Shown here: in pieces, positions 15,802-18,885 of the stretch | How positions within the stretch are numbered: the stretch's first letter is position 1 | Layout: every line of letters starts with the position of its first letter | Assembly (NCBI RefSeq): GCF_001610895.1 | Contig: NZ_CP011273.1 | Location: forward strand, 1,302,001 to 1,366,000 | DNA length: 64,000 nucleotides | Source: Planctomyces sp. SH-PL62 | GTDB lineage: Bacteria > Planctomycetota > Planctomycetia > Isosphaerales > Isosphaeraceae | Direction: 5' to 3' | Notes under the pieces: generated by a model | Seen by the model: the letters and a program-made list of their open reading frames with translations, nothing else | Told to the model about the DNA's origin: nothing | Database searches by the model: none | Position numbers and translations under genes: made by a program

Positions 15802-16542
15802 TCAGCTCCAGTTGCGAGGGATGAACAGGTCGCGCGACCACTGCCGCATGCCGAGGTCCCGGGCGTGGAGCGCCTCCTGGAGGAGCCGGATCGACTTCCA
15901 GGTGCGGTCGAAGCTGGAGTAGGTGAGCCATCCCGTGAATCCGCCGTCGTGGACGTGGCTGCGGGAGCTGACCGCGCGGGTGGAGAGGACCTGGTGGTCG
16001 AAGACCTCGCTCAGCGAGGCGAGGATCTCCTCGTCCTCACGCTCCGCGAGCTGGAGCGGGCCCTGGCCCTGGTCCGGCCAGGAGATGTTCAGGCTGCAAC
16101 TCAGGAAACGGTCGTCGTCCGAGGACTTCTGGTTGAGCCAGAGGTAGGACGCCTGGTCCCAGAGGTAGCGGACGCAGAGCAGCTCGACGGCCACCAGTCG
16201 GTGCGGCGGGACGTCCTTGTCGACGATCCCGACGTAGACCGACTCGGTCTTGGGCTCGGCCCGGTGGGGAGCCTCGCGGCCCTGTCGCGCCTGGCCCGCG
16301 CCGGCGGCTGCGGCGGGGGTCGGACGTGGGGCGGTCTCCGTCCGGGTGGCCCGCATGACGCGGTCGGTGCTGAGGAGCTCGTAGGCCTGGGCGAGGATGC
16401 GGAAGGCCCAATCCTCCCCGCCGACGTCGGGGTGGTATTTCTTGGTCTTCGACCGATAAGCGTCGCGGATCTCCTGAAGCGAGGCGTCGCGAGTCACGCC
16501 GAGCACGGCGTAGGGGTCGATGTCGAAGCTGAAGGAGGCCAA
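15802..16542 (-). CDS. J-domain (DnaJ-like) protein
   Basis: About 246 residues from a tentative TTG start at 16542. No ATG or GTG is available before the J-domain, so the start is uncertain. The J-domain spans residues about 8-60: DPYAVLGVTRDASLQEIRDAY, with the essential HPD in TKKYHPDVGG and AQAYELL. A low-complexity Pro/Ala linker follows. The C-terminal 150 residues, rich in Trp and charged residues, match no family I recognise. J-domains recruit and stimulate Hsp70. It lies 65 bp downstream of mcsB on the same strand, and the whole block of four genes can be one operon. Confidence 0.85.
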   Translation of the reverse strand: MASFSFDIDPYAVLGVTRDASLQEIRDAYRSKTKKYHPDVGGEDWAFRILAQAYELLSTDRVMRATRTETAPRPTPAAAAGAGQARQGREAPHRAEPKTESVYVGIVDKDVPPHRLVAVELLCVRYLWDQASYLWLNQKSSDDDRFLSCSLNISWPDQGQGPLQLAEREDEEILASLSEVFDHQVLSTRAVSSRSHVHDGGFTGWLTYSSFDRTWKSIRLLQEALHARDLGMRQWSRDLFIPRNWS

Positions 16543-16607
16543 GTCGTCGATCCTGTCCGAGAGGAAGACGTTTGGTCGAGGGCCGGGCCGGACGACGTCG
16601 TCGGGCC

Positions 16608-17672
16608 TTACACGTCCTCGACGCTCCGGCCGTTGGCGAGGCGGCTGCGCAGGAGCGACGCACGCGCCACGTTGCGCTGGTCGCTGTCCAGCTCGCTGCC
16701 GCGGAGCTTCTGCAGGAAGGCCGGCTGGGTCTGGATGAACAGCTCGTTGACCGTGGCGATCGAGAGGTCGTCGATCAGGCCCAGGTTCACGCCCATGCGG
16801 ACGCTGGAGAGGAGCAGCATCGTCTCCTCGCTGGAGATCGTCTGGGCCGTCTTGAGGACGCCGTAGGCCCGGCTGACCTGGTCGTGGAGGTGCTGCCGGC
16901 GGCCGGTCACGAGTTCCTGGCGGGCCGAGCGCTCGTACTGGAGGACCTGGGGGACGACGTCGGTGAGGATCTTGATGATCTCCTCCTCGCTCTTGCCCAG
17001 GGTCTGCTGGTTGGAGATCTGGTAGAAGTCGCCGAACGCCTGCGAGCCTTCGCCGTAGAGGCCGCGGACGGCCAGGTTGATCTTCTGGAGGGCCCGGAAG
17101 ACCTTGTCGATCTGCTTGTTGGCGACCAGCCCCGGCAGGTGGAGCATCACGCCCACGCGGATCCCCGTCCCCACGTTGGTCGGGCAGGCGGTGAGGTATC
17201 CCAGCGAGGAGCTGTAGGCGTAGGCGATGTCGTCTTCGAGCTGGTCGTCCAGCGAATTGATCTCGTCCCAGACCTCGGGGAGCCGGAATCCCGAGAGCAT
17301 GTACTGGATGCGGAGGTGGTCCTCCTCGTTCACCATGATCGAGATGTTCTCCTTGGGGGTGACGGCGACCCCGCGCGGGCCCTCGCCGCCGGCGAGCTCC
17401 CGGGAGATGATCTGGCGCTCGACCAGGAACTGGCGGTCGAGGTTGGGCATGGCGTTGACGTCGAAGTAGGCGGCGTCGTGCCCGGCGGCGTCGACGGCCG
17501 CCCTCACCTGCGCCTCGATCCCCGCCTTCTCGTTGCGGCTGGCGCGGTTGGTGAAGGGGAAGTCGGCCAGGTTGCGGGCGAGGCGGATGCGCGAGCACAT
17601 CACGATGTCGCTCTCGGGGCCGGCGCCCCGGAGCCATTCGCCGGAGGTCCTCGTCAGGTCGTCCAGTGTCAT
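16608..17672 (-). CDS. mcsB: Protein arginine kinase McsB
   Basis: 354 residues, close to the 363 of Bacillus McsB. It transfers phosphate from ATP to arginine side chains. In Firmicutes this marks damaged proteins for ClpCP. Phosphagen-kinase signatures are present: SRIRLARNLADFPF (ATP-binding SRxRxARN), VNEEDHLRI (NEEDHxR), and the catalytic Cys in TACPTNVGTGIR. The C-terminal segment reads DQRNVARASLLR, which resembles the RDxxRA phosphoarginine-binding motif with Asp replaced by Asn. ATG 17672 overlaps the stop of the McsA-like gene by four bases. No clpC or ctsR is nearby. Confidence 0.93.
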   Translation of the reverse strand: MTLDDLTRTSGEWLRGAGPESDIVMCSRIRLARNLADFPFTNRASRNEKAGIEAQVRAAVDAAGHDAAYFDVNAMPNLDRQFLVERQIISRELAGGEGPRGVAVTPKENISIMVNEEDHLRIQYMLSGFRLPEVWDEINSLDDQLEDDIAYAYSSSLGYLTACPTNVGTGIRVGVMLHLPGLVANKQIDKVFRALQKINLAVRGLYGEGSQAFGDFYQISNQQTLGKSEEEIIKILTDVVPQVLQYERSARQELVTGRRQHLHDQVSRAYGVLKTAQTISSEETMLLLSSVRMGVNLGLIDDLSIATVNELFIQTQPAFLQKLRGSELDSDQRNVARASLLRSRLANGRSVEDV

Positions 17673-18154
17673 GCGTGTTGATCCTTGAGGCGAAGCTGGT
17701 CTCTCAGCCTCGCGGCTTCTTCGTAGTCTTCGCGGGCGACGGCCTGGCGGAGTTGGGAACGGAGTCGAAGGCGGAGCGAGGCCCCGGGGCGGAGCCGGGC
17801 CCGCTTGCCGACGTGCCGGGTGGCGCCGTGGAAGCGCTGGAGCATCGGCAGCAGGCCTTCCCGGAAGACCCGGTAGTCGTGGGGGCATCCCAGCCGCCCG
17901 CCGATGCGGAAGTCCATGTAGCGGAGCCGGCAGTCCGGGCACCGGGACTCGGCCAGCCCGCCGACGAGTTCGCCGACGTTCTTCTTGATGAGGCCGTGGA
18001 GGACCGCGTCGAGGCCGAGGTCCGGCGGGGCGTCGGGGAGCGTCAGGCCGGCCTCTCGGGCGCAGTCGACGCACAGATGACGCTCCCGACGCCGGCCGTC
18101 CACCACGTCGGTGAGGTGGACGACGGCTTCGTTCTGGCACGTTTGACAAATCAT
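17669..18154 (-). CDS. McsA-like zinc/UVR-motif protein (copy 1, adjacent to mcsB)
   Basis: 161 residues from ATG 18154, which places the first zinc motif at the N-terminus as in McsA. An upstream TTG would overlap the preceding stop, but adds 20 unconserved residues. Zinc-binding pairs are MICQTC, HLCVDCA and RCPDC. The fourth motif reads GCPHDY, so its second Cys is Asp. A C-terminal UVR motif (QLRQAVAREDYEEAARLRDQ) follows. McsA is the activator of McsB in Firmicutes, so this protein is the likely kinase partner. It is about 57 bp downstream of its paralogue and overlaps mcsB. Confidence 0.85.
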   Translation of the reverse strand: MICQTCQNEAVVHLTDVVDGRRRERHLCVDCAREAGLTLPDAPPDLGLDAVLHGLIKKNVGELVGGLAESRCPDCRLRYMDFRIGGRLGCPHDYRVFREGLLPMLQRFHGATRHVGKRARLRPGASLRLRLRSQLRQAVAREDYEEAARLRDQLRLKDQHA

Positions 18155-18210
18155 GACCGGGTCCGCCCCCAGGAATTCGATGTCGATCCGACCCGCGCCC
18201 GCCGGGCCGG

Positions 18211-18726
18211 TCAAACCTGGTCCCGCTCGATCTCCTGGATCTTGTCGCGGAGCTTGGCGGCGGCCTCATAGTCCTCGGCGGCGACCGCCCGCTTCAGCTC
18301 GTTGCGGAGCTGGATCAGGGTGGTCTGCTGCTGGGTGTTGCGGGGGGCCCGCTTGGGGACCTTCCCGGAATGTCGAGTCTCTCCGTGGATGCTCTCCAGG
18401 AGCGGCATCAGCTCGTCGCGGAACACTTCATAGTCGTACGGGCAGCCTAGGCGTCCCGAGTTGCGAAATTCCAGGAAGGTGATCTGGCAGACGGGGCAGA
18501 CCTGCTTGTCGGCGGCCGAGGGTTCGCGCATCGTCGGCGAGGCGGCCCCCAGCCCGGCCTGGGTCGCCAGCGTCTCGGCGAGCTTGCCCATGGTCGGAGC
18601 CTCCTCCGGGGGGGCCAGGTGTTGACGGGCGTGCTCGTCGCAGAAGTGGAATTCCTGATGCTTACCCTTCTCGATGACGTCCGTGATGTGGAAGGTCGCC
18701 GGCTTCGCACATTTCTGGCATTTCAT
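18211..18726 (-). CDS. McsA-like zinc/UVR-motif protein (copy 2, operon leader)
   Basis: 171 residues from ATG 18726, with GGAG about 9 bp upstream. It has the same layout as the next gene: MKCQKC, HFCDEHA and VCPVC zinc ligands, GCPYDY in place of the fourth CxxC, and a C-terminal UVR motif (ELKRAVAAEDYEAAAKLRDK). The middle region differs, with a longer Ala/Pro spacer. The second motif here is CDEH, not CVDC, so the ligand sets of the two copies differ. Tandem duplication of an McsA-like protein ahead of one McsB is the unusual point. It is the first gene behind the promoter at 18858-18885. Confidence 0.85.
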   Translation of the reverse strand: MKCQKCAKPATFHITDVIEKGKHQEFHFCDEHARQHLAPPEEAPTMGKLAETLATQAGLGAASPTMREPSAADKQVCPVCQITFLEFRNSGRLGCPYDYEVFRDELMPLLESIHGETRHSGKVPKRAPRNTQQQTTLIQLRNELKRAVAAEDYEAAAKLRDKIQEIERDQV

Positions 18727-18857: not shown

Positions 18858-18885
18858 ATTCTAATTGACCCCCAGAGGGTGTCAA
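18858..18885 (-). promoter_or_regulatory. Sigma-70-type promoter of the mcsA-mcsB-J operon
   Basis: On the minus strand, -35 TTGACA (18885-18880) and -10 TAGAAT (18863-18858) are separated by 16 bp. The predicted start is near 18850, giving a leader of about 125 nt before the first McsA-like gene. This is the best promoter match in the window after 30771-30799. Confidence 0.65.

Follow-up and report, generated by a model that had tools for sequence, protein, structure and literature searches.

The 64,000-nucleotide stretch of Planctomyces sp. SH-PL62 (Isosphaeraceae) analysed here (the window; contig NZ_CP011273.1, positions 1,302,001 to 1,366,000) contains four genes on its minus strand, together spanning positions 15802–18726, that encode two McsA-type proteins, a McsB and a J-domain protein. 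An earlier note had read the same set from the letters alone, and matches to family models confirmed it. In 5′ to 3′ order the genes are mcsA1 (18211–18726; 171 residues), encoding a McsA-type activator; mcsA2 (17669–18154; 161 residues), encoding a second McsA paralogue; mcsB (16608–17672; 354 residues), encoding a member of the protein-arginine kinase family; and the J-domain gene (15802–16542; 246 residues), which begins with TTG and encodes a J domain with its HPD motif, a linker and a C-terminal domain. The start codon of mcsB and the stop codon of mcsA2 share four bases, ATGA (17669–17672), as the note had stated, and this overlap suggests translational coupling. A single promoter-like site, TTGACA-N16-TAGAAT (18858–18885, minus strand), lies about 130 nucleotides 5′ of the mcsA1 start and matches the consensus at 11 of 12 positions; shuffles of the 3.5-kb region contained 0.2 such sites on average.

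Tagging of proteins by arginine phosphorylation is known mainly from Firmicutes, and the operon in Bacillus, Geobacillus and Staphylococcus has the order ctsR–mcsA–mcsB–clpC. Among the Planctomycetota genomes drawn, 386 of 393 encoded McsB, as did all 45 Isosphaeraceae genomes; given this frequency, the McsA–McsB core is ordinary in the phylum. We examined the surroundings of mcsB in 40 of the 45 Isosphaeraceae genomes (the family loci; G406, G412, G415, G424 and G425, whose matches were fragments or lay at contig edges, were not used) and at 40 loci from other families, taken from the better McsB matches listed. At 78 of these 80 loci mcsA precedes mcsB. Two other-family loci, L106 and L140, have mcsB without any mcsA found within about 4 kb.

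The kinase scored 444.1 bits against the model NF002194 ‘protein arginine kinase’ (cut-off 385) and 386.8 bits against NF053707, which is under the cut-off of 500. It contains the PF00217 catalytic domain (Pfam), and its residues 11–346 align with the solved McsB structures 6fh1, 8wtb and 6tv6 over both the catalytic and the C-terminal regions (E ~2e-87). In Bacillus subtilis numbering, which we use from here on, Glu117, Cys163, Glu208, Lys190 and Asn334 of this protein are residues 121, 167, 212, 194 and 338. We compared such residues in three sets of McsB rows, 40 from the family, 40 from other families and 39 named rows from outside the family, the last two of which overlap partly. Glu121, Cys167 and Glu212, together with Arg29, Arg176 and Arg207, which we take to have catalytic and phosphate-binding roles, were invariant in every row, and the note's reading of a McsB with all phosphagen-kinase motifs is supported. 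A signature of the family was also apparent in the catalytic domain: Ser27 and Ser178 of B. subtilis McsB are Cys and Gly in all 40 family proteins and Ser and Ser in all 79 non-family rows (40 Cys/Gly and 80 Ser/Ser among 120 unique rows).

The residues that restrain the B. subtilis kinase are only partly conserved. According to the accessible part of PMC8370763, autophosphorylated Arg194 in the B. subtilis octamer is held by Arg337, Asp338, Arg341 and Ser285 of a neighbouring subunit, with Asp338 binding the guanidinium of the phosphoarginine (pArg). The residue set of such a pArg-tethered octamer is incomplete here, with Arg194 replaced by Lys and Asp338 by Asn, and with Arg337, Arg341 and Ser285 kept. 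Of the 39 family rows that have a residue at position 338, 38 have Asn, as do 28 of 40 other-family rows (8 have Asp) and 31 of 39 named rows (6 have Asp), or 97 of 118 when the three overlapping sets are summed; Lys occupies position 194 in 40 of 40, 36 of 40 and 34 of 39 rows, respectively (110 of 119 summed). No row with a residue at position 337 or 341 departs from Arg, and Ser285 is kept in 40 of 40 family rows, 36 of 40 rows from other families and all 39 named ones. Among the 120 unique rows, 2 of which are from Firmicutes, 92 combine Lys194 with Asn338 and 12 combine Lys194 with Asp338, a pattern that fits a loss of Arg194 before Asp338. Since both tether partners are replaced, control of this kinase is predicted to differ from that in Bacillus, and this replacement is the most useful new point of the analysis.

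Both McsA proteins contain zinc modules and a UVR motif (Pfam) and are encoded next to mcsB, as expected of activators of the kinase, although the scores of McsA1 (122.7 bits) and McsA2 (100.9 bits) against the NCBIfam McsA model NF053706 are under its cut-off of 210. The exception to the McsA pattern is the fourth ligand of the second zinc finger, which is Asp rather than Cys in McsA1 (C77-C80-C95-D98) and in McsA2 (C72-C75-C90-D93). In Staphylococcus aureus McsA, the ligands of the McsB-activating finger are Cys87, Cys90, Cys105 and Cys108, as given in the accessible part of a review (PMC12467219). Asp occupies the fourth position in all 40 first and all 40 second McsA copies of the family (38 of the second copies by motif pattern, those of L098 and L099 by reading the sequence) as well as in 35 of the 38 first copies from other families. 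The earlier note had taken the C-x-x-D finger and the Asn in McsB to set this locus apart; the residues are real, but both are the rule in Planctomycetota, with exceptions in some families.

Two mcsA genes lie 5′ of mcsB at all 40 family loci, whereas other families have one adjoining mcsB at 35 of 40 loci, two at 3 (all in a family designated f6) and none at 2. A McsA tree of 78 rows, in which 18 of the 40 family loci were represented, placed the first copies of the family in one clade (support 100/98) and the second copies in another (100/99), although bootstrap values were not fully settled. With the rows reduced to 39, an approximately unbiased test rejected a grouping of both copies together (p-AU 0.02). 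The note had listed the mcsA duplication among the distinguishing features; a recent tandem duplication is rejected by the separate clades and by this test, and the second McsA is therefore an old paralogue. A clade uniting the second copies of the family with those of f6 was not rejected (p-AU 0.47), so an older duplication may be shared by both. At L098, L099 and L100 the second McsA lacks the N-terminal zinc module and keeps the McsB-facing C-x-x-C/C-x-x-D finger; the J gene is missing at all three of these loci, and L098 and L099 also have no conserved promoter.

The claim of one good promoter before the block gained support from the relatives: TTGAC[AT]-N16-TA[GC]AAT is kept 5′ of mcsA1 at 36 of 40 family loci (34 at 11/12, 2 at 10). 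Overall, 63 of 78 upstream regions reached a score of at least 9/12, compared with 4.1 expected from mononucleotide shuffles, and an 11/12 site with a 16-nucleotide spacer was present in 16 of the 38 mcsA upstream regions tested from other families. In Paludisphaera a palindrome, TTGAC...GTCAA, covers the −35 box and looked like an operator; we rejected this reading because other genera do not keep the palindrome. No conserved element was found in the 5′ leader between the promoter and mcsA1, and in the window Rfam gave no match at gathering thresholds and a tRNA scan was empty.

Other components of the pathway are encoded elsewhere in the genome. The note had described ClpC as absent, which is correct for the stretch around the operon and wrong for the genome. 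Three frames contain Clp_N domains, one of which encodes a ClpC that matched its B. subtilis counterpart at 874.8 bits across the 680 residues compared; a UVR motif and both of the GTEH motifs are present in it. Both glutamates of the pArg-binding site, which we take to be Glu32 and Glu106, align in this protein, as in the Bacillus-type pathway. Another Clp_N frame encodes ClpB and adjoins DnaK, and two clpP genes lie side by side. At contig positions 2370309–2370701 (L035) we also noted one frame with two Clp_N-type repeats, no AAA modules and, by eye, thiamine-phosphate synthase-type sequence. CtsR gave no match to PF05848 or PF17727, a weak test in which the B. subtilis control was also unmatched though matching elsewhere.

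The sole low-molecular-weight phosphatase match in the genome contains the motif CTGNTCRS and is fused behind a domain of Sua5, the threonylcarbamoyl-AMP synthase (L216:1450–2691; contig positions about 5405073–5405495). The Thr in C-x-G-N-T-C-R-S presumably marks YwlE-type phosphatases, and this protein has it. All 20 relatives sampled have GNTCRS, and 19 of the 20 have a reading frame of sufficient length to hold the fusion; the Sua5 domain was confirmed by Pfam only in the present gene. Such a fusion makes a tie between pArg removal and the synthesis of N6-threonylcarbamoyladenosine (t6A) in tRNA possible. Across the phylum, the phosphatase domain was matched in 87 of the 118 genomes drawn and went unmatched in 31; among the 20 of these 31 that were listed, 17 belong to family f43, 2 to f64 and 1 to f68. 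In near-complete genomes of f43 and f64 that encode McsB, the YwlE-type phosphatase domain went unmatched, which points to a kinase without the known eraser.

The system resembles that of Bacillus, Geobacillus and Staphylococcus in having mcsA directly 5′ of mcsB, the catalytic residues, and two zinc modules and a UVR motif in McsA, and it shares with the Bacillus-type pathway a ClpC with both pArg-pocket glutamates and a YwlE-type phosphatase. By contrast, the operon differs from the Bacillus type in that no ctsR was found by the weak test above, clpC lies elsewhere, mcsA is present twice and a J gene follows downstream; the proteins differ in the C-x-x-D activating finger, in Lys for Arg194 and Asn for Asp338, and in the fusion of the phosphatase to Sua5. 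Other Planctomycetota families share the mcsA–mcsB order, the C-x-x-D finger, mostly Asn338 and Lys194 and, at a minority of loci, the promoter, but as a rule they have a single mcsA and no such J gene. Chlamydia trachomatis belongs to the same Planctomycetes–Verrucomicrobia–Chlamydiae (PVC) superphylum. As a precedent for the reading favoured below, its mcsAB operon is likewise separate from clpC, and chlamydial ClpC together with ClpP1P2 degrades arginine-phosphorylated casein (accessible part of PMC10128030). The same part of that account mentions neither a J gene nor a second McsA and does not demonstrate activity of chlamydial McsAB.

The fourth protein contains a DnaJ domain (Pfam, 50.8 bits; cut-off 27.8). 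A search with tblastn and a hidden Markov model of the J proteins placed the gene beside mcsB at 29 of the 40 family loci, including L103, where an inversion close to the end of a short contig from a metagenome splits it; three loci (L092, L104 and L105) could not be assessed. HPD is intact in all 29 linked proteins, and the TTG start at 16542 is supported by start codons in the same (23) or the next (6) alignment column at all 29 loci. The same search found the gene beside mcsB at none of the 40 other-family loci, where the sole J-type frame seen, at L127, was unrelated, on the opposite strand and more than 2 kb away. Its C-terminal domain was matched in 28 of the 248 genomes of the class searched, all of them Isosphaeraceae, and four family genomes were listed without a match. 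From this distribution, the J gene is an addition to the operon that is restricted to Isosphaeraceae.

Unlinked paralogues of the J gene also exist. All 15 fetched unlinked copies contain a J domain, and four genomes (G396, G397, G399 and G400) have only an unlinked copy and none beside mcsB. Presence of the linked gene requires at least three changes on a quick McsB tree, and on a tree of the J proteins the linked (27 rows, without L102 and L103) and unlinked (15 rows) copies require two changes. The present genome has six J-domain matches in total. An unlinked paralogue of the same two-domain layout lies at contig positions 2698889–2699671 (L225); the neighbours of the unlinked paralogue differ among the five genomes examined and gave no functional clue. 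A model of the linked protein (mean predicted local distance difference test (pLDDT) 80.0, predicted template modelling score (pTM) 0.58; 84.7 and 0.79 for the C-terminal domain alone) shows the J domain and, after a linker modelled with low confidence, a β-α-β-β-α-β domain with extra strands. A fold search found no match in the PDB at E ≤ 0.001 for the whole protein or for the C-terminal domain alone. A second fold comparison gave Z 8.2 to the bacterial microcompartment (BMC) shell protein 3cgi (93 residues aligned, root-mean-square deviation 3.1), and because this is barely above the background of 7–8 we claim a ferredoxin-like arrangement and nothing more specific.

Taken together, these observations make it reasonably probable that the locus encodes a planctomycete version of the McsA–McsB arginine kinase with a pArg–ClpC route and altered control of McsB, to which a J protein has been added in most Isosphaeraceae. 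In the pathway that we infer, including its kinase activity and its binding partners, the zinc fingers of McsA would activate McsB, which would phosphorylate arginines on damaged proteins; the N-terminal domain of the separately encoded ClpC would read the pArg mark and feed ClpP, and the phosphatase fused to Sua5 would erase it. The two McsA paralogues, one of them apparently coupled in translation to McsB, probably provide two input routes to one kinase. The tether of the caged octamer is changed at the self-phosphorylated arginine and at its receptor Asp338, and the phosphoryl-contacting Arg337, Arg341 and Ser285 are retained. The J protein, probably made from the same transcript, should stimulate DnaK through its HPD-bearing J domain, with the C-terminal domain as a possible binding site for clients or for McsA/McsB, so that refolding would compete with tagging.

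How closely the J protein belongs to this pathway is where the evidence divides. Its gene could well be a neighbour unconnected in function, derived from a family-specific J paralogue of which one copy came to lie between mcsB and coaD and was kept there by slow rearrangement. Its retention near mcsB (29 of the 40 fetched stretches) is no better than that of the unrelated trpE (34, and 19 of 40 in other families) and similar to that of coaD (24) and a class V aminotransferase gene (20), all counts being lowered by contig ends and 4-kb flanks, and because unrelated neighbours are kept at such rates the linkage of mcsB and J alone carries little weight. Further points tell in the same direction: the gene is not beside mcsB at 8 of the 37 assessable family loci, 17 of the 28 genomes with the C-terminal domain have a second copy away from mcsB, and the J protein diverges fast, with 34–88% identity in 20 relatives compared with 73–97% for McsB at the same loci. 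Against a chance neighbour stand an HPD intact at all 29 loci, persistence across many genera while identity drops to 34%, and a position on the same strand after a gap of 20–325 nucleotides that at none of the 29 loci contains a promoter-like site of at least 9/12. The lack of such a site makes co-transcription with mcsB plausible, although many of the gaps are too short for any promoter, and finding none in those counts for little. The gene-order survey proposed in the earlier note went against a fixed four-gene module as a general claim: J is missing at those 8 family loci and at all 40 in other families, which is what the note itself had named as refuting its module idea. Its observation of the locus was confirmed and its interpretation partly supported, with the J gene as a possible family-limited accessory of McsA–McsB that has a putative link to Hsp70. 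We regard as doubtful the stronger proposal that the Isosphaeraceae J protein is dedicated to the pArg system, passing clients of McsB/McsA to DnaK or the reverse, with McsB governed by two McsA proteins and J in place of a pArg194–Asp338 octamer.

The role of McsB itself can be read in other ways. It is unlikely, in our judgement, that the kinase serves signalling, phosphorylating regulators instead of tagging damaged proteins for ClpC, with the protease link secondary. With both tether residues replaced, the caged chamber of the B. subtilis enzyme, as described in the accessible part of PMC8370763, may not form, and the eraser is not universal, as at least 20 of the genomes without a phosphatase match carry McsB; but ClpC retains both pArg-site glutamates, and the weak test above gave no match for the classical regulatory target, CtsR. 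A route through ClpC also has to contend with the finding that B. subtilis McsAB did not raise the chaperone activity of chlamydial ClpC (accessible part of PMC10128030). A phosphagen-type kinase acting on free arginine would share the PF00217 catalytic domain, but the McsB-type alignment extends through the C-terminal dimerisation region and mcsA lies 5′ of mcsB at nearly every locus, which makes this explanation very improbable.

Searches of full-text literature, in which most subscription journals are not covered, combining McsB or arginine kinase with Planctomycetes found no account of the present system, and none of a YwlE–Sua5 fusion; among the 12 of 63 papers listed by a wider search, none paired McsB and planctomycetes in its entry. 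In the accessible parts of PMC2588565 and PMC4395418, the McsB or arginine kinase terms and the planctomycete terms occur apart. A heat-shock array of Rhodopirellula showed induction of ClpB, DnaK, GroEL, DnaJ and ClpP, and a term search of the accessible main text of that paper (PMC2754498) returned no ‘arginine kinase’, ‘guanido’, ‘clpC’ or ‘ctsR’.

We therefore view the locus as a real, conserved operon and a planctomycete variant of a known system, to which the J gene has been added at the level of the family. Nearly the whole phylum encodes McsB, usually with an activator adjoining it, and this genome adds a reader and a likely eraser, so that pArg tagging in Planctomycetota is now testable. 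A second testable question is how McsB, with its self-tethering residues replaced, is restrained in the absence of that octamer tether. If functional, the J gene would provide a direct link between Hsp70 and the pArg–ClpC route, and if the J protein is indeed wired into the pArg system, refolding and pArg–ClpC degradation would be coupled in one operon.

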